Translations under genes and position numbers: made by a program | Notes under the pieces: model-generated | The model's input: the letters and a program-made list of their open reading frames with translations, nothing else | Databases searched by the model: none | Told to the model about the DNA's origin: nothing | Shown: one piece after another, positions 25,976 to 42,281 of the stretch | Layout: the number at the start of each line of letters is the position of its first letter | Numbering within the stretch: position 1 is the stretch's first letter | Assembly (NCBI RefSeq): GCF_016616235.1 | Contig: NZ_CP067100.1 | Location: 5,639,001 to 5,703,000, forward strand | DNA: 64,000 bases | Direction: 5' to 3' | Origin: Bradyrhizobium diazoefficiens | GTDB lineage: Bacteria > Pseudomonadota > Alphaproteobacteria > Rhizobiales > Xanthobacteraceae

Positions 25976-26232
25976 TATTTCTTCTTGTCGCTACTGCGCG
26001 GGCTGCCGAGGCCGGCCATGGTGACGAACATGTCCTGAAACCGCTCGGCGATCTTCGGATCGAAGGTGAACCAGCTCTGGATCAGCGATTCCGGCGAGAC
26101 CTTGTCGATGTTGCTCAGAACCTGCTGCTGCAGCTTCTCCATCACCGCCGTCTGCATCGGCGCCACGTCGGGCAATCCGAAGAACTGGCGGGCCTCGAGG
26201 GGGGTGCAGTCGATTTCGATGTTAACCTTCAT
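25975..26232 (-). CDS. Small conserved protein (DUF6489-like)
   Basis: This 85-residue soluble protein begins MKVNIEIDCTPLEARQFFGL and ends in a basic tail SSDKKK. It resembles the short proteins now grouped as DUF6489, for which no function is known to me. A strong GGAGGGG site precedes the ATG at 26232; the longer open frame to 26451 is unlikely. It opens the lipid cluster and its stop overlaps the next gene's GTG. Its small size and LPDVAPMQTAVMEKLQQQV helix suggest an accessory rather than an enzymatic role. Confidence 0.75.
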   Translation of the reverse strand: MKVNIEIDCTPLEARQFFGLPDVAPMQTAVMEKLQQQVLSNIDKVSPESLIQSWFTFDPKIAERFQDMFVTMAGLGSPRSSDKKK

Positions 26233-26536
26233 GTCCCCTCCGGATTGAGATTCGAGCAGCCTGTCGGAGTATCGCCGCGAGTTGTGGTGCGACGCAAGCG
26301 ACCTGATGCCGACGCCAGATGGCTCGGCTGGCAATCGGCCGGTATAGTCAACCAAAGTCGAAAGCCGCAGTCCTCCATGCCAGACGGCACGACCAGCATT
26401 GCTGCACAGCGGTGCAACTTGGCGCGTTCCTTGCTGGAAAGGCGCTTGCACGGGTCGAGAACTCTGGGCAACATGGATCGATCAGCCCTGCCGAACAAGC
26501 AAAAATCACGGTGTGGGCGAGTGGAGAGGGTCAAGA
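26233..26536. other. Divergent promoter gap between lipid and peptide-importer clusters
   Basis: This 304-nt stretch holds no convincing gene. It separates the minus-strand lipid cluster from the plus-strand importer cluster. The right half carries a sigma-54 promoter match (see its own entry). Toward the lipid cluster I see only weak sigma-70-like boxes and the GGAGGGG ribosome binding site. Confidence 0.7.
26419..26435 (+). promoter_or_regulatory. Candidate sigma-54 (RpoN) promoter for the peptide importer operon
   Basis: TTGGCGCGTTCCTTGCT matches the -24/-12 consensus TGGCACG-N4-TTGCW with one mismatch. GG (26421-26422) and GC (26433-26434) are separated by exactly 10 nt. The predicted start of transcription is near 26446, about 90 nt before the ATG of the binding-protein gene. 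RpoN promoters typically serve nitrogen acquisition in rhizobia, which fits a peptide-uptake operon. Enhancer sites were not identified. Confidence 0.55.
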
Positions 26537-28135
26537 ATGTCAGTCGGACGAAATCTGTTTGCGGCGACGCTCGCCGGTGTGCTTGCGTTGGCGGTCTCGC
26601 CGGCGTCGAGCCAGACGCTGCGCTACGCCAACCAGGGTGAGCTGAAATCGCTCGACCCCTACACCCTGAACGAGTCGACGACCAGTGCGCATCTCGGCCA
26701 TGTCTATGAGGGCCTGGTTGCCCGTGGGAAGGACCTGAAGATCATTCCGGCGCTCGCCGAAAGCTGGGAGACGCCGGAGCCGACGCGCTGGCGCTTTCAC
26801 CTGCGCAAGGGCGTGAAATTCCACAATGGCGATCCCTTCACGGCTGATGACGTCGTATTCTCGGCCGACCGCGTGCGGGCGAAAGGCTCGAATTTCCAGA
26901 GTCGCGTTCCCGCCGATGCCAAGGTCGTCAAGGTCGACGATTATACCGTCGATTTCATCCTGACCTCGCCCAATCCCATCCTGACGGCGCTGTGGGCGAC
27001 CTGGTACATCATGGACAAAAAATGGGCAGAGGCGAACGATGCGGTGGCACCGACGCCGGCCGCCGCGACGACGCCGAGCTATGCCTCGCTCCATGAAAAC
27101 GGCACCGGCGCCTTTACCATCGAGAGCCATCAGCCAGGCGTGAAGACCGTCTTCAAGGCCAATCCGAACTGGTGGCGCAAGCCGGAGCATAATCTGAAGG
27201 AGATCGTCTTCACGCCGATCGCAAACCCGGCCACGCGTGTCGCGGCGCTGTTATCGGGCGAGGTCGACGTGATCGAGCCGGTTCCGGTCCAGGACATCGA
27301 GCGGGTCAAAGCGAGCCCCAACGCCACCGTGCTGACGGGACCCGAGCTCCGCACCATCTTCGTTGGCATGGATCAGGCGCGCGACGAGCTCCTCTATTCC
27401 AACGTCAAGGGCAAGAACCCGTTCAAGGACGTTCGCGTCCGCGAAGCCGTCTACCGGGCGATCGACGTCGACCTGATCAAGAATCGCGTGATGCGCGGAC
27501 TGTCCACGCCGTCCGCATTGATGGTCGCACCAGAGATCTTTTCCTCGAAGGATTTCACCCGGCCGAAGTTCGATCCCGATGCCGCCAAGAAGCTCCTCGC
27601 CGACGCCGGCTATGCCGACGGCTTCGAAGTGACGATGGACTGTCCGAACGATCGTTACGTCAATGACGCCGCAATCTGTCAGGCCATCGTCGGGATGCTC
27701 GCCCGCATCAACATCAAGGTAGACCTGCTGGCGCAACCCAAGGCCCAGTATTTCGCCAAGGTGCTGAAGCCCGGCGGCTACAAGACCTCGCTGTTCATGT
27801 TGGGCTGGACCCCGGATACGCTCGACTCCCAGAACGTGCTCCACGACATCATGGGCTGCCGGGACGACCCCAAGGATCCCAACCGCGGTGAAGCCAATCT
27901 CGCCGGGTATTGCAACAAGCAGTTCGACGAGCTCGCCGACAAGGTTCTGGTGGAATCCGATACGACCAAGCGCGATCAGCTGATCAAGCAGGCTTTCGAG
28001 ATCTCGATGAAGGACTGGGCCTATGTCCCGCTGCACCAGCAGGCGCTCGCTTGGGGCGTGTCGAAGAAGGTGAAGCTGACCCAGCGAGCGGACAACATGG
28101 TCATGCTCTACTGGGCGACCAAGCAAGACGAGTAG
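26537..28135 (+). CDS. Peptide/family 5 ABC transporter substrate-binding protein (importer 1)
   Basis: This 532-residue periplasmic protein has a signal peptide ending near ...LAVSPASSQ (about residue 26). The mature part is a Dpp/Opp-type binding protein (LKSLDPYTLNESTTSAHLGHVYEGL, RWRFHLRKGVKFHNGDPFTADDV). Two cysteines in the C-terminal half (DIMGCRDDP and LAGYCNKQF) fit a short disulfide loop seen in family members. The ATG at 26537 was preferred to the longer frame because the signal peptide begins there. It heads an operon with two permeases and two ATPases. The ligand is likely a di- or oligopeptide or a gamma-glutamyl compound, judged from the GGT-like gene downstream. Confidence 0.92.
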   Translation: MSVGRNLFAATLAGVLALAVSPASSQTLRYANQGELKSLDPYTLNESTTSAHLGHVYEGLVARGKDLKIIPALAESWETPEPTRWRFHLRKGVKFHNGDPFTADDVVFSADRVRAKGSNFQSRVPADAKVVKVDDYTVDFILTSPNPILTALWATWYIMDKKWAEANDAVAPTPAAATTPSYASLHENGTGAFTIESHQPGVKTVFKANPNWWRKPEHNLKEIVFTPIANPATRVAALLSGEVDVIEPVPVQDIERVKASPNATVLTGPELRTIFVGMDQARDELLYSNVKGKNPFKDVRVREAVYRAIDVDLIKNRVMRGLSTPSALMVAPEIFSSKDFTRPKFDPDAAKKLLADAGYADGFEVTMDCPNDRYVNDAAICQAIVGMLARINIKVDLLAQPKAQYFAKVLKPGGYKTSLFMLGWTPDTLDSQNVLHDIMGCRDDPKDPNRGEANLAGYCNKQFDELADKVLVESDTTKRDQLIKQAFEISMKDWAYVPLHQQALAWGVSKKVKLTQRADNMVMLYWATKQDE

Positions 28136-28151
28136 GTGTCGACATCTTGTG

Positions 28152-28195
28152 AAGTCCCGGAAGCCATCGCTTTCAATATCTGGCTTCCGGGACTT
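28152..28195 (+). other. Perfect 15-bp stem-loop between binding-protein and permease genes
   Basis: AAGTCCCGGAAGCCA (28152-28166) and TGGCTTCCGGGACTT (28181-28195) are perfect complements around a 14-nt loop. There is no downstream T-run. In operons of binding-protein importers such a structure after the first gene commonly protects its message or limits read-through, raising binding protein over membrane subunits. Confidence 0.75.
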
Positions 28196-28250
28196 GCTGT
28201 TTCGGGCTAACGCGATGATGCGTGCTGCTGAAGAGATGTGAAAGGAACAG

Positions 28251-29231
28251 ATGCTCGCTTTCACACTGCGCCGGGCCATTCAGGCCGTCGGCGTCATGAT
28301 CGCCGTCGGAGTCATCGCGTTCTCGATGTTCCGCTTTGCCGGCGATCCCGTGAACCAGATGGTCGGAATGGATACGTCGGGCGCCGAACGCGCCGCGATC
28401 CGCAAATCGCTCGGCCTCGACGATCCCGTCATCGTGCAGTTCGGCCGTTATGTCGGCAATGCTGCGCAGTTCAAGTTCGGCGTGTCCTACCAGTTCCGCC
28501 TCCCTGTCACCAATCTTCTGATGGAGCGGATGCCGGCGACGCTGGAACTCGCGATCTGTGCCACCATCTTCGCGATGATCTGTGGCATCCTGATGGGCGT
28601 CTACTCGGCGCTGCGCCGTGACAGCTGGCTCACGCACATATTCCAGGCCGTCTCCTTGATCGGTATCTCGCTGCCGACCTTCCTGATCGGCATTCTCATG
28701 ATCTACCTGTTCTCGGTGACGCTCGGCTGGCTGCCCTCCTTCGGTCGGGGCGATGTCGTGCATATCGGCTGGTGGACGACGGGGCTCCTGACGCTGTCCG
28801 GCCTGAAGGCGCTGATCATGCCATCGATCACGCTCGGCCTGTTCCAGATGACACTGATCATGCGGCTGGTCCGCGCGGAGATGCTGGAGGTGATGCGCAC
28901 TGACTATATCCGCTTCGCCCGCGCGCGCGGGCTCACCACACGGGCGATCCATTTCGGCCACGCGCTGCGCAACACACTGGTTCCCGTGATCACCGTGGCC
29001 GGCCTGCAATTCGGCTCGGTCATTGCTTTCGCGATCATCACCGAGACCGTGTTTCAGTGGCCGGGCATGGGGCTCCTGTTCGTGCAGGCCGTTCAGAACG
29101 TCGATATCCCGATCATGGCGGCATATCTCATGATGGTCTCCCTGATCTTCGTCACCATCAATCTCCTGGTGGATATCCTCTACACCATCGTCGATCCGCG
29201 GCTGCGCTCGACGGTCAGCCGGGCACATTGA
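28251..29231 (+). CDS. ABC transporter permease, DppB type (importer 1)
   Basis: This 326-residue inner membrane permease has the DppB/OppB pattern. The first membrane helix lies at the N-terminus (RAIQAVGVMIAVGVIAFSMF). The EAA coupling loop reads EVMRTDYIRFARARGLTTRAIHFGHALRNTLVPV. AAGGA lies 5 nt before the ATG. It follows the binding-protein gene after a 115-nt gap with a stem-loop and is followed after 1 nt by the second permease. Confidence 0.94.
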   Translation: MLAFTLRRAIQAVGVMIAVGVIAFSMFRFAGDPVNQMVGMDTSGAERAAIRKSLGLDDPVIVQFGRYVGNAAQFKFGVSYQFRLPVTNLLMERMPATLELAICATIFAMICGILMGVYSALRRDSWLTHIFQAVSLIGISLPTFLIGILMIYLFSVTLGWLPSFGRGDVVHIGWWTTGLLTLSGLKALIMPSITLGLFQMTLIMRLVRAEMLEVMRTDYIRFARARGLTTRAIHFGHALRNTLVPVITVAGLQFGSVIAFAIITETVFQWPGMGLLFVQAVQNVDIPIMAAYLMMVSLIFVTINLLVDILYTIVDPRLRSTVSRAH

Positions 29232-29232
29232 G

Positions 29233-30192
29233 ATGAGCGAGACCATCATTCCGCACGTCACCGAGAAGCCCGCCGCCGCACCGGGCTGGTTCGGGCGCGC
29301 GATCGATAGCGACCTGTTCTATTCGTTCCGCCGCTCCAAAATCACCATGATCGCGGCTGTGGTGACGCTCCTGTTCTTCCTGATCGCGATCTTCGCCTCG
29401 GTGTTGTCGGTGCAGAATCCGTTCGACCCGGCGCAGCTCCAGCTGATGAATTCGCGCATCTCCCCGCTCTGGACCGCCGATGGACAGAGCCCGTTCCTGC
29501 TCGGCACCGACGAGCAGGGCCGCGACGTACTGTCCGCGATCCTCTACGGTCTGCGTATCTCGCTGCTCGTCGGCGTGCTCGGCGTGGTCCTGTCCGGCGC
29601 AATCGGCATCCTGCTCGGGCTGACGGCCGGCTATTTCGGCGGCGCCGTCGACGGGCTGATCATGCGCATCGCCGACGTGCAGCTTTCGTTTCCGGCCATC
29701 CTGATTGCGCTCTTGATCAACGGTATCGCCAAATCGGTCTTTGGCAACAAGCTCGACGAGATGAGCATGCTGGCCGTCCTGGTCTTTGCAATCGGGCTGA
29801 GTTTTTGGGTGCAGTATGCGCGCACGGTGCGCGGCTCAGTCCTAGTCGAGAAGAACAAGGATTATGTCGCAGCCGCCCAATTGATCGGCCTGCCCGCCCC
29901 GGTGATCATGCTGCGCCACGTGCTGCCGAACACCACAGGACCGATCCTCGTGATCGCCACCATCAACCTCGCGCTCGCCATCATCACCGAGGCAACGTTG
30001 TCGTTCCTCGGCTCGGGCATGCCCGAGACCATGCCGTCGCTCGGCACGCTGATCCGTATCGGCAACGGCTATCTCTTCGCAGGCGAATGGTGGATCGTCG
30101 CCTTCCCCGGGTTTGCGCTTGCCGCCCTGATCCTGTCCATCAACCTGCTGGGCGACTGGCTGCGCGATGCGCTCAACCCGAAACTGCGATGA
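29233..30192 (+). CDS. ABC transporter permease, DppC type (importer 1)
   Basis: This 319-residue permease begins with the DppC-specific N-terminal extension and a first helix (ITMIAAVVTLLFFLIAIFAS). The family segment LLGTDEQGRDVLSAILYGLRISLLVGV follows, then a coupling loop LVEKNKDYVAAAQLIGLPAPVIMLRHVLPNT. It forms the translocation pore with the DppB-type subunit. The ATG is one base after the upstream stop, and the ATPase gene starts 13 nt after this stop. Confidence 0.94.
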   Translation: MSETIIPHVTEKPAAAPGWFGRAIDSDLFYSFRRSKITMIAAVVTLLFFLIAIFASVLSVQNPFDPAQLQLMNSRISPLWTADGQSPFLLGTDEQGRDVLSAILYGLRISLLVGVLGVVLSGAIGILLGLTAGYFGGAVDGLIMRIADVQLSFPAILIALLINGIAKSVFGNKLDEMSMLAVLVFAIGLSFWVQYARTVRGSVLVEKNKDYVAAAQLIGLPAPVIMLRHVLPNTTGPILVIATINLALAIITEATLSFLGSGMPETMPSLGTLIRIGNGYLFAGEWWIVAFPGFALAALILSINLLGDWLRDALNPKLR

Positions 30193-30205
30193 GTATGCGT
30201 TGCCC

Positions 30206-31192
30206 ATGACCGAACCCGTTCTCTCCGTACGCGACCTTCACGTGGAATTCGCGTCCCGCCGCGGCACGCTCCGCGCCATCGACGGCGTCTCCTTCGACAT
30301 CGCCAAAGGCGAGGTGCTGGGCGTGGTCGGGGAATCCGGCGCCGGCAAATCGGTCACCGGCCTCGCAGTGATCGGCCTGATCGATCCCCCCGGCCGCATC
30401 GCCGGCGGCGAGATCCGTCTCGGCGGTCTGCGCATCGACAATCTGCCGCCCGAGGAGATGCGCCGCATCAGGGGCAAGCGCATCGGCATGATCTTCCAGG
30501 ATCCCCTCACCTCGCTCAATCCGCTGTACAAGGTCGGCGATCAGATCATCGAGACGATCCGGACCCATCTCAATCTGTCCGAGACGGCCGCACGCCGCCG
30601 CGCCATCGACCTGCTCGCCGAAGTCGGCATTCCCGCGCCGGAAAAGCGCATCGACGGCTATCCGCACGAATTCTCCGGCGGCATGCGCCAGCGCGTTGTG
30701 ATTGCGCTGGCGATCTGCGCCGAGCCGGAGCTGATCATCGCGGACGAGCCGACCACCGCGCTCGACGTCTCCGTGCAGGCGCAGATCATCTCGTTGATCA
30801 AGCGGCTCGGCCGCGACCACGGCACCGCCGTGATGCTGGTGACGCACGACATGGGCGTGATCGCGGAGACCTCGGACCGTGTCGCCGTGATGTATGCCGG
30901 CCGCGTCGCCGAGATCGGCCCGGTGCAGGACGTCGTCAGGAATCCGCTACATCCTTACGCCAAGGGCCTGATGGGCGCGATCCCGACGCTTGCGGGTGAG
31001 GACAAGCGCCTGGTGCAGATTCCGGGCTCCATGCCGCGCCTGTCGGCGATCCCGCGCGGCTGCTCGTTCAATCCGCGCTGTGCGTTCGCGTTCGATCGCT
31101 GTCGTATCGAACGGCCGGAGCCACTGCCGCGCGGCGCGCAAGCGGTCGCGTGCCATCTCTATGACACCGTGACGGCGGAGAGCGCGGCATGA
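30206..31192 (+). CDS. ABC transporter ATP-binding protein, DppD type (importer 1)
   Basis: This 328-residue ATPase has Walker A GESGAGKS, signature [14 protein letters not shown] and Walker [14 protein letters not shown]. The C-terminal oligopeptide-transporter extension contains the cysteine-bearing [16 protein letters not shown], typical of DppD/OppD Fe-S-like tails. The ATG at 30206 was chosen over an earlier in-frame codon inside the permease gene. Its end overlaps the next ATPase as ATGA. Confidence 0.94.
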
Positions 31193-32178
31193 GCGCGCCT
31201 TTCGTCCAGGCCAGAAATCTACGCCGCGTCTTTGACGTCTCGAAGCCCTGGCTCAACCGCATGCTCGAAGGCGGGCATCTCGAATATCTCAAGGCTGTCG
31301 ATCACGTCACCTTCGACATCAGGAAGGGCGAGACCTTTGCGCTCGTCGGCGAATCCGGCTCGGGCAAGACCACGGTGGCGCGGATGGTCGTCGGCCTGCT
31401 GCCGCCGAGCTCCGGCGACGTGCTGATCGACGGCGTCTCGATGACCGACCCGCGGCAGGCCCAGGCGCGCCGAAAGCTGCGCCGCCGCATCCAGATGATC
31501 TTCCAGGATCCCTATGCGAGCCTGAACCCGCGATTCCGGGTCGATGCCATCATCTCCGAGCCGATCCGCGCCTTCGACCTGATCCAGGGCGAACGCGACA
31601 TCCAGGCGCGCGTCGGCGAACTCTTGAGCCTCGTCGGCCTGCATCCCGACGACCGGCTGAAGTTTCCGCACGAATTCTCCGGCGGCCAGCGCCAACGCAT
31701 CGCGATCGCCCGGGCGCTCGCCTCCGATGCCGAGTTCATCGTCTGCGACGAGCCGACCTCGGCGCTCGACGTCTCCGTGCAGGCGCAGATCCTGAACCTG
31801 ATGCGCGACCTCCAGGACAAGTTCGGCCTGACCTACATGTTCATCAGCCATAACCTCGCCGTGGTCCGCCACATGGCAAGCCGCGTCGGCGTGATGTATC
31901 TTGGCCGCATCGTCGAGATCGCGGAGGGGCGCGAGCTGTTCGCCCGGCCGCGCATGCCCTACACAAAAATGCTGCTGGGCGCGGTGCCTGATCTCGCGAT
32001 GTCCGGCCGCCAGCGCATTCCGGTGAAGGGCGAGATCCCGAACCCGATCAATCCGCCTTCCGGCTGCGCCTTCAATCCGCGCTGTCCGCTGGCGTTCGAC
32101 CTTTGCCGCAAGGAGGTTCCGGAACTGATTGACGGCGTCGCCTGTCACGCGGTGAACACCGCACCGGTCCCGGCGTGA
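31189..32178 (+). CDS. ABC transporter ATP-binding protein, DppF type (importer 1)
   Basis: This 329-residue ATPase has Walker A GESGSGKT, signature [15 protein letters not shown] and Walker B EFIVCDEPTSALDVS. The C-terminal family extension has SGCAFNPRCPLAFDLC. It pairs with the DppD-type subunit as the heterodimeric motor. The ATG overlaps the previous stop by 4 nt. An 81-nt gap separates it from the GGT-like gene, the largest gap in this half of the operon apart from the stem-loop region. Confidence 0.94.
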   Translation: MSAPFVQARNLRRVFDVSKPWLNRMLEGGHLEYLKAVDHVTFDIRKGETFALVGESGSGKTTVARMVVGLLPPSSGDVLIDGVSMTDPRQAQARRKLRRRIQMIFQDPYASLNPRFRVDAIISEPIRAFDLIQGERDIQARVGELLSLVGLHPDDRLKFPHEFSGGQRQRIAIARALASDAEFIVCDEPTSALDVSVQAQILNLMRDLQDKFGLTYMFISHNLAVVRHMASRVGVMYLGRIVEIAEGRELFARPRMPYTKMLLGAVPDLAMSGRQRIPVKGEIPNPINPPSGCAFNPRCPLAFDLCRKEVPELIDGVACHAVNTAPVPA

Positions 32179-32259
32179 CGCGCGCGTGCCATGCCAGCAG
32201 CGCATTGGCGGCACGGCATCGCCTGTGATCAAGTGCGCGCGCCGCAAATGAGGTAGCCC

Positions 32260-34065
32260 ATGGCCAGCAACATCAATCCCGATCCGTTCACGACGCGCCC
32301 CGAAATCGAGGGCACGTTCGGGGTCGTCGCCAGCACGCACTGGATTGCGACCGCCGTCGGCATGGGCATCCTGGAGAAGGGCGGCAATGCCTTCGATGCC
32401 GGCGTCGCCACCGCCTTCACCCTCCAGGTGGTCGAGCCGCATCTGAACGGCCCCGGCGGCGATGTGCCGATCATCGTCCACGACGTGAAGCGCGGCCGCA
32501 CCGAGGTGATCTGCGGCCAGGGCCCGGCACCGGCCCGCGCGACCATCGCGCATTACAGAAGCGAAGGCCTCGACATGGTGCCCGGCACCGGCCTGCTTGC
32601 GGCCTGCGTCCCCGGCACGTTCGAATCCTGGATGATGCTGCTGCGCGACTACGGCACCATGCGCCTGCGCGATGTGCTGGAGCCGGCGATCTCTTATGCG
32701 CGCGACGGCTATCCGCTGGTCGAGCGAGCCTGCGCCACGATCCAGACCGTCGAGCAATTGTTCCGCAAGCATTGGCCGACCTCTGCCGCGGTCTACCTGC
32801 CCAATGGTGAAGTGCCGCGACCCGGCACGCTCTTCACCAACAAGACGCTGGCCGCAACATACACCCGCATCCTGAGCGAAGCCGAGAGCGGCGGTGGCGG
32901 CCGCGATGCCGAAATCGAGCGCGCGCGCAAATCGTGGTCGCGAGGTTTCGTCGCCGAAGCGACCGACAATTTCTGCCGGACCCAGGAAGTCATGGACGTC
33001 AGCGGCTCGCCGCATCGCGGGGTCCTGTCGGCCGACGACATGGCGCGCTGGCAGCCGACGGTCGAGGCTCCCCTCACCTACGACTACGGCCGCTACACCG
33101 TCTGCAAGGCCGGCGTCTGGAGCCAGGGCCCGGTGACGCTGCAGCAGCTTGCGCTGCTAAAGGGCTTTGCGCTCGACGGGCTCGACCCGACCGGACCGGA
33201 GTTCATCCATCTTCAGATCGAATGCGCAAAGCTCGCCTTCGCTGACCGCGAAAAATTCTACGGTGATCCCAAGTTCAGCGAGATCCCGATCGCGACGCTG
33301 CTATCGGACGCCTACAACGACGAACGTCGCAAGTTGGTGACCGAGAAGGCTTCGCTCGATCTGCGGCCCGGCGCGGTCGAGGGCTTTGGCGGCGTGGTCA
33401 GGCTGCGCCGCGCTGAAGGCCAACGCGAGGCCGTCGGCGCGCTCGGCGCCGGCGAGCCAACCGTCGGCCGCTTCGGCGAGGTGCGCGGCGACACCGTGCA
33501 TTTCGATATCATCGACAAGGCCGGCAACATGGTGTCCTCGACGCCGTCGGGAGGCTGGCTGCAATCCTCGCCTGTCATTCCCGAGCTGGGTTTCTGCCTC
33601 GGCAGCCGCGCACAAATGTTCGATTTGGAGGAGAACCAACCGAGCTCGCTCGCGCCGGGCAAGCGGCCGCGCACCACGCTGTCGCCGACCATGGCGCTGC
33701 GCGACGGCGAGCCGTATCTGGCCTGGGGATCGCCCGGCGGCGACCAGCAGGATCAGTGGATCACGCAATTCTTCCTGCGCCACGTCCATTGCAACCTCAA
33801 TCTCCAGGAGGCGATCGACGCGCCGGCGTGGCATTCCGAGCACTTTCCGATCTCGTTCTGGCCCCGCACCGCAAGGCCCGGCGTGCTCGTGATCGAGAAC
33901 CGCGTGCCGAAGGCGACGATCGAGAACCTGCGCGAGCGCGGACATGTCGTCGAGGTCGGGCCGGACTGGTCGGAAGGCCGCCTCACTGCGGCCTCGCGCG
34001 TCGGTTCGCGCCGCCGCGCCGCCGCCAATCCGCGCGGCATGCAGGGCTACGCCGCAGGGCGCTGA
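32260..34065 (+). CDS. Gamma-glutamyltransferase-like Ntn hydrolase, apparently cytosolic
   Basis: This 601-residue GGT-family protein has the N-terminal GMGILEKGGNAFDAGVATAFTL block and LNGPGGDVPIIV. The autocleavage and nucleophile region is GDTVHFDIIDKAGNMVSSTPSGG, placing the nucleophile threonine near 412. No signal peptide is visible, unlike periplasmic GGT. The motif D-x-R-E-x-A-P, whose arginine holds the glutamyl carboxylate in classical GGT, is replaced by CGQGPAPARAT. That suggests an altered acyl substrate and resembles GGT-like or acylase-like relatives. It sits between two peptide importers and 9 nt upstream of a DUF1028 gene, so it probably processes imported amides. Confidence 0.9.
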   Translation: MASNINPDPFTTRPEIEGTFGVVASTHWIATAVGMGILEKGGNAFDAGVATAFTLQVVEPHLNGPGGDVPIIVHDVKRGRTEVICGQGPAPARATIAHYRSEGLDMVPGTGLLAACVPGTFESWMMLLRDYGTMRLRDVLEPAISYARDGYPLVERACATIQTVEQLFRKHWPTSAAVYLPNGEVPRPGTLFTNKTLAATYTRILSEAESGGGGRDAEIERARKSWSRGFVAEATDNFCRTQEVMDVSGSPHRGVLSADDMARWQPTVEAPLTYDYGRYTVCKAGVWSQGPVTLQQLALLKGFALDGLDPTGPEFIHLQIECAKLAFADREKFYGDPKFSEIPIATLLSDAYNDERRKLVTEKASLDLRPGAVEGFGGVVRLRRAEGQREAVGALGAGEPTVGRFGEVRGDTVHFDIIDKAGNMVSSTPSGGWLQSSPVIPELGFCLGSRAQMFDLEENQPSSLAPGKRPRTTLSPTMALRDGEPYLAWGSPGGDQQDQWITQFFLRHVHCNLNLQEAIDAPAWHSEHFPISFWPRTARPGVLVIENRVPKATIENLRERGHVVEVGPDWSEGRLTAASRVGSRRRAAANPRGMQGYAAGR

Positions 34066-34074
34066 AGGCATCTT

Positions 34075-34785
34075 ATGACCTGGTCGATCATCGCGCGAGA
34101 CCCTGTCACCGGCCAGTTCGGCATTGCGGTCGCGAGCCGCTTCTTCGCCGTCGGTGCTCGCGTGCCCTATATCGCGGCCGGCCTCGGCGCGATCGCGACG
34201 CAGGCCTTCGTCAATCCCTATTACGGCATCGACGGCATCAAACTGCTGCGCGAGGGCCTGAACGCGCATGACGTGCTCGCCCCCCTGCTCGCGATCGATG
34301 ACGGCCGCGAGAGCCGTCAGCTTCATATCATGGACGCGAGCGGCGAGATCGCCGCGCATACCGGCCGCGACTGCGTCGACTGGTGCGGGCACGTCGCGGG
34401 CAGCGGCTTCTCGATCGCCGGCAACATGCTCACCGGCGCCGACGTGCTTGACGAGACGGCCAAGACCTACATCACCAATGACAGCCTGCCCTTTCCGCGC
34501 CGCCTGCTCGCCGCCATGCGCGCGGGCGAGGCTGCGGGCGGCGACAAGCGCGGCAAGCAGTCCGCGGCACTGCTGATCCACGGCGAAGAGGAATGGCCGG
34601 CGCTGGACATCCGCGCCGACGACCATTCCGATCCGCTCGGCGAACTCGAACGGCTCGAACGCATCAGCCAGGAGCTCTGGGTGCACTTCCGCAGCTCGCT
34701 GCCGACGCGGCAGAACCCGGCCGGCAACACCGATCGCAGCGTCATCGACGCCAGCATCAAAGCAGCGCGCGCAAGGCTGTCATGA
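34075..34785 (+). CDS. DUF1028 domain-containing protein
   Basis: This 236-residue protein starts MTWSIIARDPVTGQFGIAVAS, the conserved opening of DUF1028, and continues with AAGLGAIATQAFVNPYYG and GNMLTGADVL. A structure of this family (SPO2555-like) is classed in the Ntn-hydrolase fold, so the threonine after the initiator methionine is a possible nucleophile. No reaction is assigned to my knowledge. It lies 9 nt after the GGT-like gene and overlaps the next ATPase start as ATGA. Two Ntn-type enzymes between peptide importers suggest stepwise hydrolysis of an imported amide. Confidence 0.9.
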   Translation: MTWSIIARDPVTGQFGIAVASRFFAVGARVPYIAAGLGAIATQAFVNPYYGIDGIKLLREGLNAHDVLAPLLAIDDGRESRQLHIMDASGEIAAHTGRDCVDWCGHVAGSGFSIAGNMLTGADVLDETAKTYITNDSLPFPRRLLAAMRAGEAAGGDKRGKQSAALLIHGEEEWPALDIRADDHSDPLGELERLERISQELWVHFRSSLPTRQNPAGNTDRSVIDASIKAARARLS

Positions 34786-35770
34786 GCGCGAGCCCTCTCA
34801 TCGAGATCGAGGGCCTGCGCATCCGTTTCCACGGCGACGACGGCCGCGTCACCCATGCGGTCGACAGCGTCGATCTCAGCGTCGCCAACGGCGCCACGCT
34901 CGGCCTCGTCGGCGAATCCGGCTGCGGCAAGAGCGTAACGTCGCTGGCGATCATGGGCTTGCTGCCGAAGCAGAGCGCGGAAATATCAGGCGCAATCCGC
35001 TTCGACGGTTTTGACCTGCTGCATACGTCCGACCAGACGCTGCGCGACCTCCGCGGTAACCGGCTCGCGATGATCTTCCAGGAGCCGATGACCTCGCTCA
35101 ACCCGAGCTTCACCATCGGCGACCAGATCATCGAGACCATTTTGCGCCATCGCGGCGGCTCGCGGAAGAGCGCGCGCCAGCGGGCTGTCGAGCTGCTGCG
35201 CCGTGTCCACATCCCCTCGCCCGAGCGACGGATCGACGAATATCCGCACAAGCTCTCCGGCGGCATGCGCCAGCGCGTCATGATCGCGATGGCGCTGGCC
35301 TGCGATCCGCAGCTCCTGATCGCAGACGAGCCGACCACTGCGCTCGACGTCACCCTGCAGGCGCAGATTTTGGAGCTGATGCGCGAGCTGAAGGCGGCAA
35401 GCGGCGCCGCGATCATCCTGATCACCCACGATCTCGGCGTCGTCGCCGAAGTCTGCGACGAGGTCGCGGTGATGTATGCCGGCGAGATCGTCGAGCGCGC
35501 GCCAGTCGATGAACTGTTTTCCGCGCCTCAGCATCCCTACACGGTCGGGCTGCTCGGCTCGATCCCGCGGCTCGATCATCGCGCCGAACAGCTTGCCACG
35601 ATCGAGGGCATGGTGCCGAACATGGCGCAGCCGCCCGCCGGCTGCCGCTTCGCCGCGCGCTGCCCCTTCGTGCTGGACGCCTGCACCAGGGCGCCGCCGC
35701 CGCTGGTGGAAGTCGGCCCCGGTCACCTGTCGCGCTGCATCCGCGCGCCGCTCGAACGCCTGGTGTCGTG

Positions 35771-35771
<1 letters not shown>
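34782..35771 (+). CDS. ABC transporter ATP-binding protein, DppD type (importer 2)
   Basis: This 329-residue ATPase has Walker A GESGCGKS, signature [15 protein letters not shown] and Walker [16 protein letters not shown]. The DppD-type cysteine tail reads [15 protein letters not shown]. The ATG at 34782 overlaps the DUF1028 stop; the open frame runs further upstream as an antiphase continuation. It belongs to a second complete importer whose gene order is inverted (ATPases first, binding protein later) relative to importer 1. Confidence 0.93.
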
Positions 35772-36877
<1,106 letters not shown>

Positions 36878-36900
36878 GCCGCAGCAATGGGGATTGTCCG

Positions 36901-38409
36901 ATGAAGATATTTCGTCTGGCCGCAACGGCCGCCGCTGTCCTGCTGTCGCTTGGAGCCGCTCAGGCCCAGACCACCCTGCGCGTCGGTCTTGCCGAGGATC
37001 CTGACATCCTCGATCCGACCATGGCGCGCACCTATGTCGGCCGCATCGTGTTCTCGGCGTTCTGCGACAAGCTGTTCGACATCGACGAGAAGCTGAACAT
37101 CGTGCCGCAGCTCGCGCTGTCGAGCGAGACCGTCGATGACGGCAAGGGTCTCGTGATAAAGCTCCGGCCAGGCGTGAAATTCCACGACGGCGAGCCGTTC
37201 GATGCGGAGGCCGCCAAATTCTCGCTGGAGCGCCATCTGACCTTCCCCGGCTCGTTCCGCAAGCCGGAGCTGGCCTCGGTCGACCACATCGACATCGTCG
37301 ATCCCCTCACCATCAAGCTGGTACTGAAGGCGCCGTTCTCGCCCCTGCTTGCCCAGCTCACCGACCGCGCCGGCATGATGATGTCGCCGAAGGCGGCGAA
37401 GGAATCCGGCGACAAGTTCGGCCTGCATCCCGTCTGCGCCGGTCCGTACAAATTCATCGAGCGCGTGCAGCAGGACCGCATCGTGTTCGAGAAGTTCGCC
37501 GACTACTGGAACAAGGACAACGTCTTCATCGACCGCATCGTGTTCCAGCCGATCGTGGACGCCACGGTGCGGCTGGCGAACCTGAAATCCGGCGGCCTCG
37601 ATCTGATCGAGCGCGTGCTCGCCACCGACCTCAAGGACGTACGCGCGGATTCACGGCTGAAGGTCGCGACCGCGATCGAGCTCGGCTATCAGGGCATCAC
37701 GCTCAACATCGGCAAGGACAAGGCCAAGGGACCGCTCAGCCAGTCCGCCAAGGTGCGGCAGGCGCTCGACCTTGCGATCGACCGCGAGGCGATCAACCAG
37801 GTCGTGTTCAACGGCGAGTTCCAGCCCGGCAATCAATGGGTCAATCCCGATCATCCCTACTATCAAAAGTCCCTTCCGATCCGGCCCCGCAACGTGGAGA
37901 AGGCCAAGGCGCTGCTGAAGGAGGCCGGCGTGACGCCGCCGGTCAGCGTCGATTTCCTTGTGCCGAAGGGCGCGGAGACCGAGACGCCGGCGCAGGTGAT
38001 CCAGTCGATGGCGGCGGAAGCCGGGTTCGACATGAAGATCCGCCTCACCGAATTCGCGACCGGATTGAAGCAGGCCGAGGCCGGCGACTATCAGGCCTAT
38101 ATGCTCGCCTGGAGCGGCCGCGTCGATCCCGACGGCAACACCTTCGTCTTCCTGCACAGTGGCGCGCCGCAGAACTACGGCGCCTGGAACAATCCGCAGG
38201 CCGACAAGGCGCTGGAGGACGCGCGTCTCGTCACCGATCCCGTCAAGCGCAAGGCGAGCTATGAGGTCCTGGCGAAGCTGGTCCAGGATGAGGAGCCGCT
38301 GCTCTACCTCTACCACCGCCGCATCATCATCGCGCACACGACCAAGCTCGAAGGCTACCGGCAGATGCCCGACGGTCTCGTGCGCGTCATTGGCCTCAAG
38401 CTGAAGTGA
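36901..38409 (+). CDS. Peptide/family 5 ABC transporter substrate-binding protein (importer 2)
   Basis: This 502-residue periplasmic protein has a clear signal peptide (MKIFRLAATAAAVLLSLGAA, cleavage near AQA-Q, residue 23). The mature part is Dpp/Opp-type (AEDPDILDPTMARTYVGRIVFSAFCDKLF, VIKLRPGVKFHDGEPFDAEAAKFSLERH). It is clearly distinct from the binding protein of importer 1, so the two importers probably take up different ligands. Permeases follow after 10 nt. Confidence 0.93.
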   Translation: MKIFRLAATAAAVLLSLGAAQAQTTLRVGLAEDPDILDPTMARTYVGRIVFSAFCDKLFDIDEKLNIVPQLALSSETVDDGKGLVIKLRPGVKFHDGEPFDAEAAKFSLERHLTFPGSFRKPELASVDHIDIVDPLTIKLVLKAPFSPLLAQLTDRAGMMMSPKAAKESGDKFGLHPVCAGPYKFIERVQQDRIVFEKFADYWNKDNVFIDRIVFQPIVDATVRLANLKSGGLDLIERVLATDLKDVRADSRLKVATAIELGYQGITLNIGKDKAKGPLSQSAKVRQALDLAIDREAINQVVFNGEFQPGNQWVNPDHPYYQKSLPIRPRNVEKAKALLKEAGVTPPVSVDFLVPKGAETETPAQVIQSMAAEAGFDMKIRLTEFATGLKQAEAGDYQAYMLAWSGRVDPDGNTFVFLHSGAPQNYGAWNNPQADKALEDARLVTDPVKRKASYEVLAKLVQDEEPLLYLYHRRIIIAHTTKLEGYRQMPDGLVRVIGLKLK

Positions 38410-38419
38410 CGTTGCAAGG

Positions 38420-39361
38420 ATGCTGAACTTCCTCGCCCGCCGCCTTGCGCAGATCGTGCCGACGCTGTTCTTCGTCTCGGTGCTGATCTTCTCGCTGCAG
38501 CAATTGCTGCCGGGCGATCCCGCGCTGGTGATGGCGGGCGAAGAGCGCGATCCGGCCGTGATCGAACAGATCCGGCACCAGTACCGGCTCGATCAGCCCG
38601 TCCCGGTGCAGTACGCCTATTGGATCAAGGGCGTACTGTCGGGCGATTTCGGCGAGTCCCTGCGCAACAAGATGCCGGTGCGCGAATTGATCGCGCAGAA
38701 GCTGCCGGTGACGCTCCAGCTGGGCTCGATGGCGATCATCATCGCCTTCCTGATCGGCATTCCCGCCGGCATCGTCGCCGCCGTCAAGAAGGGCTCCGCC
38801 TGGGATTATGGCGCCAATTTGTTCGCGCTGTGGGGCATCTCGACGCCGAACTTCTGGCTCGGCATCATGCTGATCTTCCTGTTCTCGATCGAGCTCGGAT
38901 GGTTGCCGGCCTCCGGTTACGTTCCGCTCACCGAGAGCTGGCGCGCGAGTCTCGCTGCCACCATCATGCCCGCCTTCGTGCTCGGCAACGCCATCGCTGC
39001 GGTCCTGATGCGGCACACGCGTAGCGCCATGCTCCAGGTGCTGGAAAGTGACTATGTCCGCACCGCGCGCGCCAAGGGACTCTTGGAGCGCTCGGTGATC
39101 CTCAAGCACGCCATGCGTAACGCGCTGACCCCAGTGATCACCTTGGGCGCACTCGAGCTCGGCACGCTGCTGTCGGGCGCCGTACTGACCGAGCAGATCT
39201 TCTCCATCCCCGGCTTCGGCAAGCTGATCGTCGATGCCGTCTTCAACCGCGATTACGCCGTCGTGCAGGGCGTCGTGCTGGTGACGGCGACGATCTACAT
39301 CACGCTCAACCTGATCGCTGACATCGCCTACATCCTCGTCAATCCCAGGCTGAGGGGCTAG
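38420..39361 (+). CDS. ABC transporter permease, DppB/GsiC type (importer 2)
   Basis: This 313-residue permease has an N-terminal helix RLAQIVPTLFFVSVLIFSLQQLLPGDPA and the coupling loop VLESDYVRTARAKGLLERSVILKHAMRNALTPV. The layout is that of the DppB/GsiC family. It sits 10 nt after the binding-protein gene and 3 nt before the partner permease. Confidence 0.94.
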   Translation: MLNFLARRLAQIVPTLFFVSVLIFSLQQLLPGDPALVMAGEERDPAVIEQIRHQYRLDQPVPVQYAYWIKGVLSGDFGESLRNKMPVRELIAQKLPVTLQLGSMAIIIAFLIGIPAGIVAAVKKGSAWDYGANLFALWGISTPNFWLGIMLIFLFSIELGWLPASGYVPLTESWRASLAATIMPAFVLGNAIAAVLMRHTRSAMLQVLESDYVRTARAKGLLERSVILKHAMRNALTPVITLGALELGTLLSGAVLTEQIFSIPGFGKLIVDAVFNRDYAVVQGVVLVTATIYITLNLIADIAYILVNPRLRG

Positions 39362-39364
39362 GCC

Positions 39365-40252
39365 ATGACCGACGCTGTGCTCGCAGCCAATCCCGTCGCC
39401 GATGCCGGTGAGCTGGACAGCCCGGCGCGCCGGGCGCGGCGCCGGCTGTTCAAGCGCAAGGCGGCGGTTGCGGGCCTCGTGGTGCTCGTCGTGTTCATCC
39501 TGCTCGCGCTGCTGGCCCCTCTGATCGTGCCCTACGATCCCATCGCGACGAGCTGGAGCCTGGTCCGCAAGCCACCGACGGCGGCACACTGGTTCGGCAC
39601 CGACGAGCTCGGCCGCGATATCTTCAGCCGCGTCGTCTACGGCGCGCGCGCCTCGCTGCTCGCCGGCCTGATCTCGGTCGCGATTGCGCTCGGCATCGGC
39701 GTGCCACTCGGCCTGCTCGCCGGCTATCGCGGCGGATTCGTCGATGCGCTGATCAGCCGGATCACCGATGCCATGCTGGCCTGCCCGTTCCTGATCCTGG
39801 CGATCGCGCTCGCGGCATTTCTCGGCCCGAGCCTCGGCAACGCCATGATCGCGATCGGCATCTCGGCAACCCCGATCTTCATCCGCCTGACCCGCGGCCA
39901 GGTGCTGAGCGTCAAGGCCGAGGACTATGTCGAGGCCGCCCGCGCGCTCGGCAACCCGCCGTGGCGGATCGCATTCTCGCACATCCTGCCGAACATCCTG
40001 CCGGCGCTGCTGGTGCAGGCTACGCTGTCGATCGCCGCCGCCATCATCGCCGAAGCCGCGCTGTCCTTCCTCGGCCTCGGCCAGCAGCCGCCGGCTCCGT
40101 CCTGGGGCAGCATGCTCAATGCGGCACAACGGTTCCTGACCCAGGCGCCCTGGATGGCAATCTGGCCGGGACTTGCCATCTTCCTGGTCGTGCTGTCGCT
40201 GAACCTGCTCGGCGACGGGCTGCGCGACGCGCTCGATCCAAGGCAGCGTTAG
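39365..40252 (+). CDS. ABC transporter permease, DppC/GsiD type (importer 2)
   Basis: This 295-residue permease has the DppC-type WFGTDELGRDIFSRVVYGARASLLAG segment and a coupling loop KAEDYVEAARALGNPPWRIAFSHILPNI. It is the last gene of the plus-strand cluster. Only 22 nt separate it from the convergent RidA-like gene, and I see no clear terminator there. Confidence 0.94.
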   Translation: MTDAVLAANPVADAGELDSPARRARRRLFKRKAAVAGLVVLVVFILLALLAPLIVPYDPIATSWSLVRKPPTAAHWFGTDELGRDIFSRVVYGARASLLAGLISVAIALGIGVPLGLLAGYRGGFVDALISRITDAMLACPFLILAIALAAFLGPSLGNAMIAIGISATPIFIRLTRGQVLSVKAEDYVEAARALGNPPWRIAFSHILPNILPALLVQATLSIAAAIIAEAALSFLGLGQQPPAPSWGSMLNAAQRFLTQAPWMAIWPGLAIFLVVLSLNLLGDGLRDALDPRQR

Positions 40253-40274
40253 ATTAAACTAGCGGGTCGAGCGA

Positions 40275-41021
40275 TCAGATCACCACCTCCCGCATCACCC
40301 GGCGGCAATCCATCTCGTATTCGAGATCGACCACCGGCGGCCGGGCGAAATGCCAGGTCAAGCCGGAGCGCAGCGCGCCGCGGCGGACCAGTTCGTCGAC
40401 CAGCGCGTGGTGGAAGTCGTGCACCGAATAGGCCTGCACACCGGTCGTGTCCTTCCAACCGAAACCGAACGCGGTCATCCGGTTTTCCATCTGCGAGGTC
40501 GTGGTGAACCGCACCTTCTCGCGAAGACCCTCCCGGCTGAGGTCGCGGTATCGTACCGTGCGCTCGACATAGCTGCCGCTGCCTTCGCGCGCCTCGGCGC
40601 CGCCGGCGATCACGAAGGACGGCGCCTTCGATGTCGTCGGGCGCGTGAAGGAGAAGGCGTAGAAGCACGGCTCGGACGGCGGATCGATCTCGGGACAGAC
40701 ATTGCTGCGCGCCACCGGATTGGTGGTGCCGTCGAAGATACCCCATTCCGACAGCGTCTTCACATAGTGCAGGTTGAAGGCGCGAAAGCCCTCCTCGCTG
40801 AAGGCTGCCGGCGAGCGGAGCTCGCAGGCGCAGAATGCGGTGAGCGGCCGGCCTGCCTCCTGGATGTACTTTGCCGCCAGCGCAAATCCCTCGGCGAGCG
40901 GCACCAGGCGGTCGAACCGGACGCGCTCGATCTCATAGCCGTCGTCCGCGGCCGCGCCGGCCGAATACTGGAACACGGACGGGATGAAGCGATAATTGCC
41001 GGCGGAGAAATCACTGACCAT
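40275..41021 (-). CDS. Conserved hypothetical protein, possible tandem RidA/YjgF-like fold
   Basis: This 248-residue soluble protein has no assigned function. The first half (PLAEGFALAAKYIQEAGRPLTAFCACELRSPAAFSEEGFRAFNLHYVKTL...NPVARSNVCP) follows the RidA layout: a helix, a strand, a D/P-x-x-F-x-x-x-N-x-x-Y helix and then the arginine-bearing segment. The second half (SFVIAGGAEAREG...SYVERTVRYRDLS...REKVRFTTTSQMENRMTAFGF) could be a diverged second copy. RidA proteins hydrolyse reactive enamine/imine intermediates of amino-acid metabolism. The assignment rests on pattern only. It is convergent with the peptide-importer operon. Confidence 0.65.
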   Translation of the reverse strand: MVSDFSAGNYRFIPSVFQYSAGAAADDGYEIERVRFDRLVPLAEGFALAAKYIQEAGRPLTAFCACELRSPAAFSEEGFRAFNLHYVKTLSEWGIFDGTTNPVARSNVCPEIDPPSEPCFYAFSFTRPTTSKAPSFVIAGGAEAREGSGSYVERTVRYRDLSREGLREKVRFTTTSQMENRMTAFGFGWKDTTGVQAYSVHDFHHALVDELVRRGALRSGLTWHFARPPVVDLEYEMDCRRVMREVVI

Positions 41022-41030
41022 GTCGAGCTC

Positions 41031-42281
41031 CTAATCCAGTTGCATGCGGCTACCCTTGGCCCCATTGAGCAGGCGCTTCAGATGGAAGCTGGCCAGCGCA
41101 TCCTCGGCATGCATCCCCACCAGCGCGGCAAAGGCCGGCATGGCAGCGAGATCGCCAGCCTCCATCTTGGCAAAGGCCTCGGAATAGAGCGCAGTCTCCG
41201 GCGCTTCGAATTTGGCTTGCGCCAGCGGCTCGAACGCGCGCAACGGCTCGCTGCGTCCGCGCAGCATCAGCTCGCCGACAGGGCGGCCCTGGAAATTCTC
41301 GGCCGCCTTGGCGACGCTGGCACTGACGCAGATGCGCGTGCCCAGATGCTTGTTGGCGGCTTCCAGCCGCGCCGCGATGTTGATGGAGTCGCCATAAGCG
41401 GTGTAGTCGAAGAAGCGGTTGCCGCCGAAATTGCCGACCAGCGCCGGCCCGGCATGAATGCCGATGCGGGTGGCGCCGAAACGCACACCCTTGGCACTTT
41501 GGCGGACACAGAAATCCTGCGCCCAGGCATCGAGATCGTGGGCGCAGGCGACCGCCCGCGTCGCATAGTCAGGCTGATCGCCCGGCGCATTGAACAGCAC
41601 CTGGAGCGCATCGCCGATGATCTTCGCGACCGTCCCCTCATGTTCGAACACGATCTCGGTCATTCCGCCGACATATTCGTTGAGGAGCTCGCCCAGCGTC
41701 TCCGGCGGCGCAGTCTCGACCAGCGAGGTGAAACCTGTGATGTCGGTGAAGATCGTGGCGACGTCGCGCCACTGCACTTCGATCCCCTCGCCCTCGCCGC
41801 TTGCTGCCAGACGCTTGGCAAGCTCGGGCGAAAAATGACGCGACAACGCGGCATGGGCCCGCTCCGCCACCATCTGGCGGCGCCGCACCTCGCGCAGCAT
41901 CTCGATGTGGCGGATGGTCTTGTCGATCGTGGCTTGCAGGTCGGAAAAGTCGATCGGCTTGGTCAGGAAGTCGAACGCGCCGCGGTTCATCGCGGTGCGG
42001 ATGTTGCTCATGTCGCCATAGGCCGAGACGATGATGGTCGACTTCTTGTCCTCGGCGTCCTGGAGCTTTTGCAGCAGCGACAGCCCGTCCATGCGCGGCA
42101 TGTTGATGTCCGAGACCACCATGTCGACATGCGGATTCTCTTCGAGCGATTGCAGCGCCTCGAGGCCATCGCGGGCGAACATGATGGCGAGCAGCCCGTC
42201 GCGAATCTGCCTGCGGAATTTCTGCAGGACCAGGGCCTCGAGATCCGGCTCGTCGTCGACGAAGAGGATGGTCGCAGTCAT
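41031..42281 (-). CDS. Response regulator with class III adenylate/guanylate cyclase output domain
   Basis: This 416-residue protein has a receiver domain (about 1-125) with acidic pocket VDDEPD, phospho-acceptor aspartate 58 in [12 protein letters not shown] and lysine 108 in LTKPIDF. A helical linker is followed by a class III cyclase domain. Metal-binding aspartates are in FTDITGF (about 180) and IIGDAL (about 224), and the transition-state region reads [19 protein letters not shown]. It probably makes cAMP on phosphorylation of the receiver. Its ATG overlaps the stop of the single-domain regulator by 4 nt, completing a kinase-regulator-cyclase operon. Confidence 0.92.

Follow-up and report, generated by a model that had tools for sequence, protein, structure and literature searches.

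In a 64,000-nt window of the Bradyrhizobium diazoefficiens genome (contig NZ_CP067100.1, positions 5,639,001 to 5,703,000), a cluster of twelve plus-strand genes encodes two peptide-type ATP-binding cassette importers, T1 and T2, together with a homolog of gamma-glutamyltransferase (GGT) and a DUF1028 protein. The core of this cluster is probably a conserved uptake-and-hydrolysis module consisting of T2, an N-terminal nucleophile (Ntn) hydrolase of the LmbA2991 type and, in part of the loci, the DUF1028 protein. Here, the Gsi/Dpp-type importer T2 would take up a small compound of amide or peptide character, which would then be hydrolyzed in the cytoplasm by the LmbA-type enzyme (via Thr412, after autocleavage at Asp411-Thr412) and by the DUF1028 protein (via Thr2). 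In Bradyrhizobium and its kin, T1 is placed in front and probably broadens the intake. We infer that the two enzymes act jointly in one pathway, that they do so in the cytoplasm, and that T1 feeds the same pathway. The first-pass annotation of this DNA had already proposed uptake followed by intracellular hydrolysis by two Ntn-fold enzymes, which is supported by the Ntn family matches, by the lack of signal peptides on reading the sequences, and by the conserved gene neighborhood.

All twelve open reading frames were confirmed to be open within 26537..40252, at the place and in the order previously given for them:

26537..28135, plus strand: SBP1, T1 solute-binding protein of the SBP_bac_5 family with 532 aa, secretion signal by reading (PF00496, 294 bits; best PDB relative 5U4O)
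28251..29231, plus strand: PermA1, T1 permease (PF00528/PF19300)
29233..30192, plus strand: PermB1, T1 permease (PF00528/PF12911)
30206..31192, plus strand: ATP1a, T1 ATPase (PF00005/PF08352)
31189..32178, plus strand: ATP1b, T1 ATPase (PF00005/PF08352)
32260..34065, plus strand: LmbA2991-type GGT homolog, 601 aa, no signal peptide by reading (PF01019, 396 bits)
33490..33495, plus strand: predicted autocleavage site Asp411-Thr412 with Thr412 as predicted nucleophile (alignment to E. coli GGT and LmbA2991)
34075..34785, plus strand: DUF1028 protein with predicted Ntn fold, 236 aa (PF06267, 250 bits; structure model)
34078..34080, plus strand: Thr2 of the DUF1028 protein, predicted N-terminal nucleophile after Met removal (Thr in all clustered sequences)
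34782..35771, plus strand: ATP2a, ATPase of importer T2 (PF00005/PF08352)
35768..36877, plus strand: ATP2b, T2 ATPase, starting at GTG or the following ATG (PF00005/PF08352)
36901..38409, plus strand: SBP2, T2 solute-binding protein, secretion signal by reading (PF00496, 284 bits; PDB 5U4O, then YliB 1UQW)
38420..39361, plus strand: PermA2, T2 permease (NCBIfam Opp2B 321 and GsiC 293 bits, both under cut-off)
39365..40252, plus strand: PermB2, T2 permease (NCBIfam Opp4C 313 and GsiD 296 bits, both under cut-off)

The Pfam scan covered ten of the twelve proteins, each of which matched its expected family, and PermA2 and PermB2 were assigned by the NCBIfam scan, where they matched Opp/Dpp/Gsi-type permeases below the curated cut-offs. 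The reported 4-nt overlap between the DUF1028 gene and the next ATPase gene is present, as are 4-nt overlaps of ATP1a with ATP1b and of ATP2a with ATP2b. The spacing claimed to be tight is not so throughout the cluster: gaps of 115 and 81 bp are found between SBP1 and PermA1 and between ATP1b and the GGT homolog, respectively.

The conservation of the cluster was analyzed in related loci, namely the best 80 of 585 confirmed stretches. The exact twelve-gene order occurs in 46 of these 80 loci, and four further ones show it as well, except that one or two genes appear as two matches each; several of the remaining loci are interrupted at contig ends. Thus, the arrangement is more than chance, and the conserved neighborhood on which the earlier proposal depended does exist. 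Four other loci carry T1, the GGT homolog and the DUF1028 gene without T2. Among 30 Bradyrhizobium loci, SBP1 (together with PermA1 and PermB1) falls into a high- and a low-identity class, split at 90%, and SBP2 does likewise at 88%; all four class combinations occur (10, 8, 7, and 5 loci), while the GGT homolog is 94–97% identical. This pattern looks like an exchange of ligand-binding alleles inside a stable operon. One locus (L049) has the Bradyrhizobium cluster, at 96% identity, in a record titled Frankia sp. RB7, which is probably mislabeled.

The combination of the enzymes with T2 recurs in other lineages. For this comparison 20 GGT-centered and 20 DUF1028-centered loci were chosen (not at random, the first six for adjacency). 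Scripted gene calling, where it was used on the loci of this study, was crude; one such survey missed four GGT loci (L166, L213, L215, and L221), and its neighboring genes were named by eye unless a Pfam or NCBIfam match is given. Enzyme genes accompany T2 in permuted orders in 5 of the 20 GGT-centered loci, as GGT-DUF1028-T2 (L150, L152, and L153), T2-GGT-DUF1028 (L155) or GGT-T2 (L157), and in 8 of the 20 DUF1028-centered loci, where the DUF1028 gene stands immediately before the T2 genes. In a phylum sample of 16 loci (including a second Bradyrhizobium copy, L265, and a locus interrupted near the gene, L257) T2 lies beside the enzyme gene six times. A relative was found in 91 plasmid records, from which 17 annotated and two unannotated loci were read, with a tblastn check. 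In the 17 annotated loci a T2-type importer adjoins the LmbA-type gene 13 times, and a GntR/FadR/FCD regulator lies within the stretch in 16. A TauE/SafE exporter stands beside the gene in three of them, and an acetamidase/formamidase lies within 8 kb in three. A Nonomuraea locus, found by tblastn and reading at lower identity, has the order regulator, solute-binding protein, permeases, ATPases, enzyme, TauE-like gene. Due to this recurrence, the unit is not specific to rhizobia, and its core is the second half of the cluster, T2, plus the LmbA-type enzyme. In three loci (L159, L160, and L168) the LmbA-type gene was seen by eye immediately upstream of a large lptD-like gene.

Counterpart genes of T1 and T2 are only 27–53% identical, which marks the two importers as old paralogs; a recent duplication of one importer was rejected on these values. 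Outside the Bradyrhizobium kin, T1 was found as distant matches only (SBP1 23–30%), while T2 and the enzymes reach 45–79%. Both importers described earlier are present; they are not equal ancestral halves, since T2 accompanies the enzymes elsewhere and a close T1 was seen in the Bradyrhizobium kin only. T2 reaches none of the NCBIfam Gsi equivalog cut-offs (GsiB 196.8/594, GsiC 293.1/463, and GsiD 295.9/484 bits). Opine uptake is not favored; SBP2 and SBP1 match AgaA and AccA too, but less well than their best PDB relatives. The genome has 14 PF00496 matches, and a protein search (7999 of 8000 scored candidates) gave at least 120 matches, those listed being all close.

The GGT homolog keeps the fold and the catalytic threonine of its family, with T412 aligned to T391 of E. 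coli GGT. D411 and T412 align to Q390 and T391 of the E. coli enzyme and are invariant across 34 sequences. In E. coli GGT the gamma-glutamyl group is held by R114, N411, Q430, D433, S462, and S463; the window enzyme has Q87, G432, R450, M453, T472, and T473 at these positions, respectively, and its lid loop is missing. Q87 and R450 are likewise invariant in the 34 aligned sequences, the glycine pair G483/G484 is retained, and one relative (L103) has kept Ser at the S462 position; the row own_L004 was left out of this comparison. By contrast, another locus of the same genome (L002) keeps the lid loop and the gamma-glutamyl residues except for Q430, which is Glu. The NCBIfam model TIGR00066 was not reached (281.3 bits, cut-off 357.85). 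The closest structure is LmbA2991 (PDB 6J3A/6J3I) at 56% identity, and the high full-length identity together with the Asp-Thr motif, which corresponds to D420/T421 of LmbA2991 (PMC5519988), places the enzyme in the LmbA2991-type group. Autocleavage at Asp411-Thr412 with Thr412 as nucleophile would fit this alignment. Its relatives LmbA and Ant6 are described as lacking gamma-glutamyl activity in the abstract of PMC6085292. The gamma-glutamyl or glutathione chemistry favored in the first-pass annotation was therefore dropped as leading reading after residue comparison and structure match, and the substrate is, judged from the pocket, unlikely to be a gamma-L-glutamyl compound. A gamma-glutamyltranspeptidase locus, bll8231, is named in PMC8632152, but could not be tied to this cluster.

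The DUF1028 protein belongs to its family by a clear margin (PF06267, 250 bits against a curated cut-off of 26.2), and its structure model (pLDDT 94.6) predicts an Ntn fold. The best Foldseek match is 2IMH, SPO2555 according to the PDB title (E 1.1e-19, TM 0.85, 32% identity), which is also the sole DUF1028 match in the PDB search; proteasome-type and HslV chains follow at E about 2e-4 and above, and the E. coli asparaginase EcAIII is a weaker match (E 0.04). After clustering at 85%, all 45 remaining sequences have Thr as their second residue, and 109 of 114 sequences start with Met-Thr, the remaining five having a short extension or a different start. In a review (PMC9140057), SPO2555 stands for a seventh subfamily of Ntn hydrolases, with Thr as nucleophile and no peer-reviewed data behind it; its likeness to proteasome subunits leads the same review to question whether this subfamily is a discrete one. 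The name DUF1028 was not met in the literature searched. Distant DUF1028 genes have RidA on one side and an ArgE/M20 hydrolase on the other in Burkholderia, Arthrobacter and an E. coli plasmid (L285, L286, and L287), and adjoin RidA in Aminobacter (L290); in Deinococcus and Devosia their neighbors are ABC importers. These settings point to amide or amino-acid chemistry. At one locus (L170:8945-11123) three tandem DUF1028 genes follow a diverged peptide-type importer.

The association was also analyzed in a class sample of 289 genomes, in which 52 genomes besides the Bradyrhizobium genome itself carry 55 LmbA-type genes (51–78% identity; five matches at 35–38% were kept apart and two fragments of genome G330 dropped). 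The DUF1028 gene is present in 40 of these 52 genomes compared to 32 of the 236 without an LmbA-type gene (Fisher p 7e-19, relatedness ignored), and dgcN in 36 of 52 compared to 38 of 236, whereby eight genomes with weak PF07755 matches were dropped from the lists. For the positions, 34 DUF1028 and 18 dgcN places were entered by hand, the dgcN places being a selection made by eye so as to cover those on GGT-bearing contigs. The DUF1028 gene follows six of the 55 LmbA-type genes immediately downstream on the same strand, with 9–141 bp between match ends. For 13 of the 55, dgcN is found at a distance of up to 10 kb, always divergent, and for 12 of these at up to 2.1 kb. Among the 131 of 245 neighbors that were scanned (within two genes, 130–460 aa), DUF1611 (9) and MR_MLE (7) are the commonest Pfam families, and one neighbor pair reaches both the DgcN and the DgcA NCBIfam cut-offs. 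In an enzyme tree of 109 sequences, whose deep branches are weakly supported, the minimum number of changes is 12 for T2, 12 for DUF1028, and 8 for dgcN, below all 500 shuffles. The three labels thus follow the tree, yet the links, those of T2 and DUF1028 with at least 12 changes each, were gained or lost repeatedly.

Several observations weigh against a conserved module of this kind, whose assignment is built on sequence, predicted structure and gene neighborhood. In ten of the 80 related loci, several of them interrupted, the GGT homolog lacks all eleven partner genes, and in four more a distant ATPase match is its sole companion. The DUF1028 gene is present in only 3 of the 16 phylum-sample and 5 of the 17 annotated plasmid loci, and 57 of 105 tree loci, some interrupted, bear none of the searched labels. 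No locus or tree tip bears both dgcN and T2; a PF07755 search of the Bradyrhizobium genome gave no match, and dgcN was found in none of the 16 phylum-sample and none of the 17 annotated plasmid loci. C–C cleavage is the sole known activity of LmbA2991, which is not known to hydrolyze amides.

As to the substrate, the hints differ. Acidic D-amino acid derivatives are suggested by the dgcN link (PMC12363236 and PMC10845958), and the LmbA2991 activity together with the TauE-like neighbors hints at oxalyl compounds or another anion as product; isopeptide or isoaspartyl amides, the other candidates of the earlier proposal, may be among the possible substrates. It is conceivable, albeit tentative, that D-glutamate, D-aspartate or their amides are freed from peptides taken up by T2 or T1, for instance stem peptides of peptidoglycan, with racemization taking place elsewhere. 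The close divergent position of dgcN, the rank of DUF1611 and MR_MLE among the neighbors and the DgcN/DgcA pair point in this direction, and PMC12363236 assigns dgcN a key place in a pathway that handles acidic D-amino acids and the corresponding amides. The separation of dgcN from T2 and the missing dgcN in the Bradyrhizobium genome and in the phylum and plasmid loci speak against it.

Somewhat more doubtful is that the enzyme acts as a C–C hydrolase, whereby the imported compound would have or gain an alpha-keto (oxalyl) side chain that is removed as oxalate, as with Ant6 and LmbA2991. This would fit the identity and the Asp-Thr site shared with LmbA2991, as well as the TauE/SafE-type exporters of the plasmid loci and, by reading, of Nonomuraea. 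According to PMC5519988, LmbA2991 shares the in vitro C–C cleavage of a pyrroline with Ant6, in whose reaction oxalic acid was identified as co-product; the same paper gives its efficiency as about 37% of that of Ant6, on a pathway that is not its own, and terms its native role unclear. The cluster is flanked by a gene of the 2-amino-5-chloromuconate deaminase family, CnbZ (40275..41021, minus strand; NCBIfam 384 bits, cut-off 220), which may suit such chemistry, but this gene is convergent and perhaps only positional, and peptide-type importers and a DUF1028 protein are odd company for ring-cleavage products. Both of these explanations refine the uptake-and-hydrolysis module and do not exclude it. 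In one tentative form of it, T2 would import an acidic-D-amino-acid (or oxalyl) peptide or amide in soil and marine bacteria, and both Ntn enzymes would release the product in sequence, with DgcN-DgcA racemization or TauE-like export in other species, which would be a new catabolic pathway.

It is unlikely that the two peptide importers are unrelated and merely share a location with the two hydrolases in Bradyrhizobium: five of the 80 related loci (one of them, L075, interrupted) carry T1 and the GGT homolog with neither DUF1028 nor T2, and no single promoter is evident from the scan described below, but enzyme-T2 units recur in permuted order in other lineages. It is highly improbable that glutathione or gamma-glutamyl peptides enter through a Gsi-like importer and are then cleaved by a GGT, since the PF01019 match, the good GsiC and GsiD scores of the T2 permeases, the proximity of SBP2 to YliB and a gene order resembling iaaA-gsiABCD are opposed by the lost pocket and lid loop, the TIGR00066 score (281 vs 358 bits), the nearest enzyme being LmbA2991, whose relatives are reported without this activity, and another, nearly canonical GGT locus (L002) of the genome.

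An importer combined with an intracellular Ntn hydrolase is a known arrangement; here it comes with two enzymes without known native function. In E. coli iaaA-gsiABCD the Ntn hydrolase gene likewise overlaps an ATPase gene, followed by the solute-binding protein and two permeases, and the T2 subunits are related to GsiB, GsiC, and GsiD. Both ATPase domains of the E. coli system are encoded in a single gene, gsiA, whereas T2 has two ATPase genes; IaaA is an isoaspartyl peptidase, whereas the hydrolase here is a DUF1028 protein, and the T2 scores stay below the Gsi cut-offs. E. coli GGT shares fold, catalytic Thr and glycine pair with the window enzyme, but differs in the substrate pocket and lid loop. 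LmbA2991 of Streptomyces lincolnensis was assayed on a lincomycin/anthramycin-type precursor, and the window enzyme is likened to it by sequence and structure. SPO2555 shares its fold with the DUF1028 protein and is placed in a Thr-nucleophile class (PMC9140057), to which the DUF1028 protein would also belong, but it is only 32% identical and itself an uncharacterized protein. The DgcN-DgcA pathway neighbors LmbA-type genes in 13 of the 55 class-sample cases, whereas the window genome lacks a dgcN match in the PF07755 search. The label "gamma-glutamyltransferase family" on the LmbA-type clade may thus mislead on substrate. With an LmbA2991-type enzyme and a DUF1028 protein beside an importer with binding proteins that lend themselves to purification and screening, both questions of function are directly testable; if true, the sequential-release pathway would give the first DUF1028 function and a native role for LmbA2991.

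A scan of 26000-41100 gave as many promoter-like sites (2, with 2.0 expected) and terminator-like sites (7, with 7.4 expected) as chance would, and it therefore speaks neither for nor against a single transcript. The gap between SBP1 and PermA1 holds a candidate RNA hairpin (28152..28195, plus strand; 14-pair stem tested, folding z-score and covariation), and the 135-nt stretch around it folds at z -3.5. In an alignment of 59 sequences of the Bradyrhizobium type, from which L072 and L092 were omitted out of 60 relatives, 89.9% of the stem cells are paired; the covariation score is 0.173 compared to 0.129 in shuffles and 0.061–0.138 for one-column slides. Two of the 14 tested pairs are mostly unpaired, some compensatory changes are present, and a slide by -1 gives seven pairs with two-sided changes compared to six for the real structure. 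The hairpin may raise the level of SBP1 over the permeases. At the other end of the cluster, the CnbZ flank gene is present at 58 of the 80 related loci.

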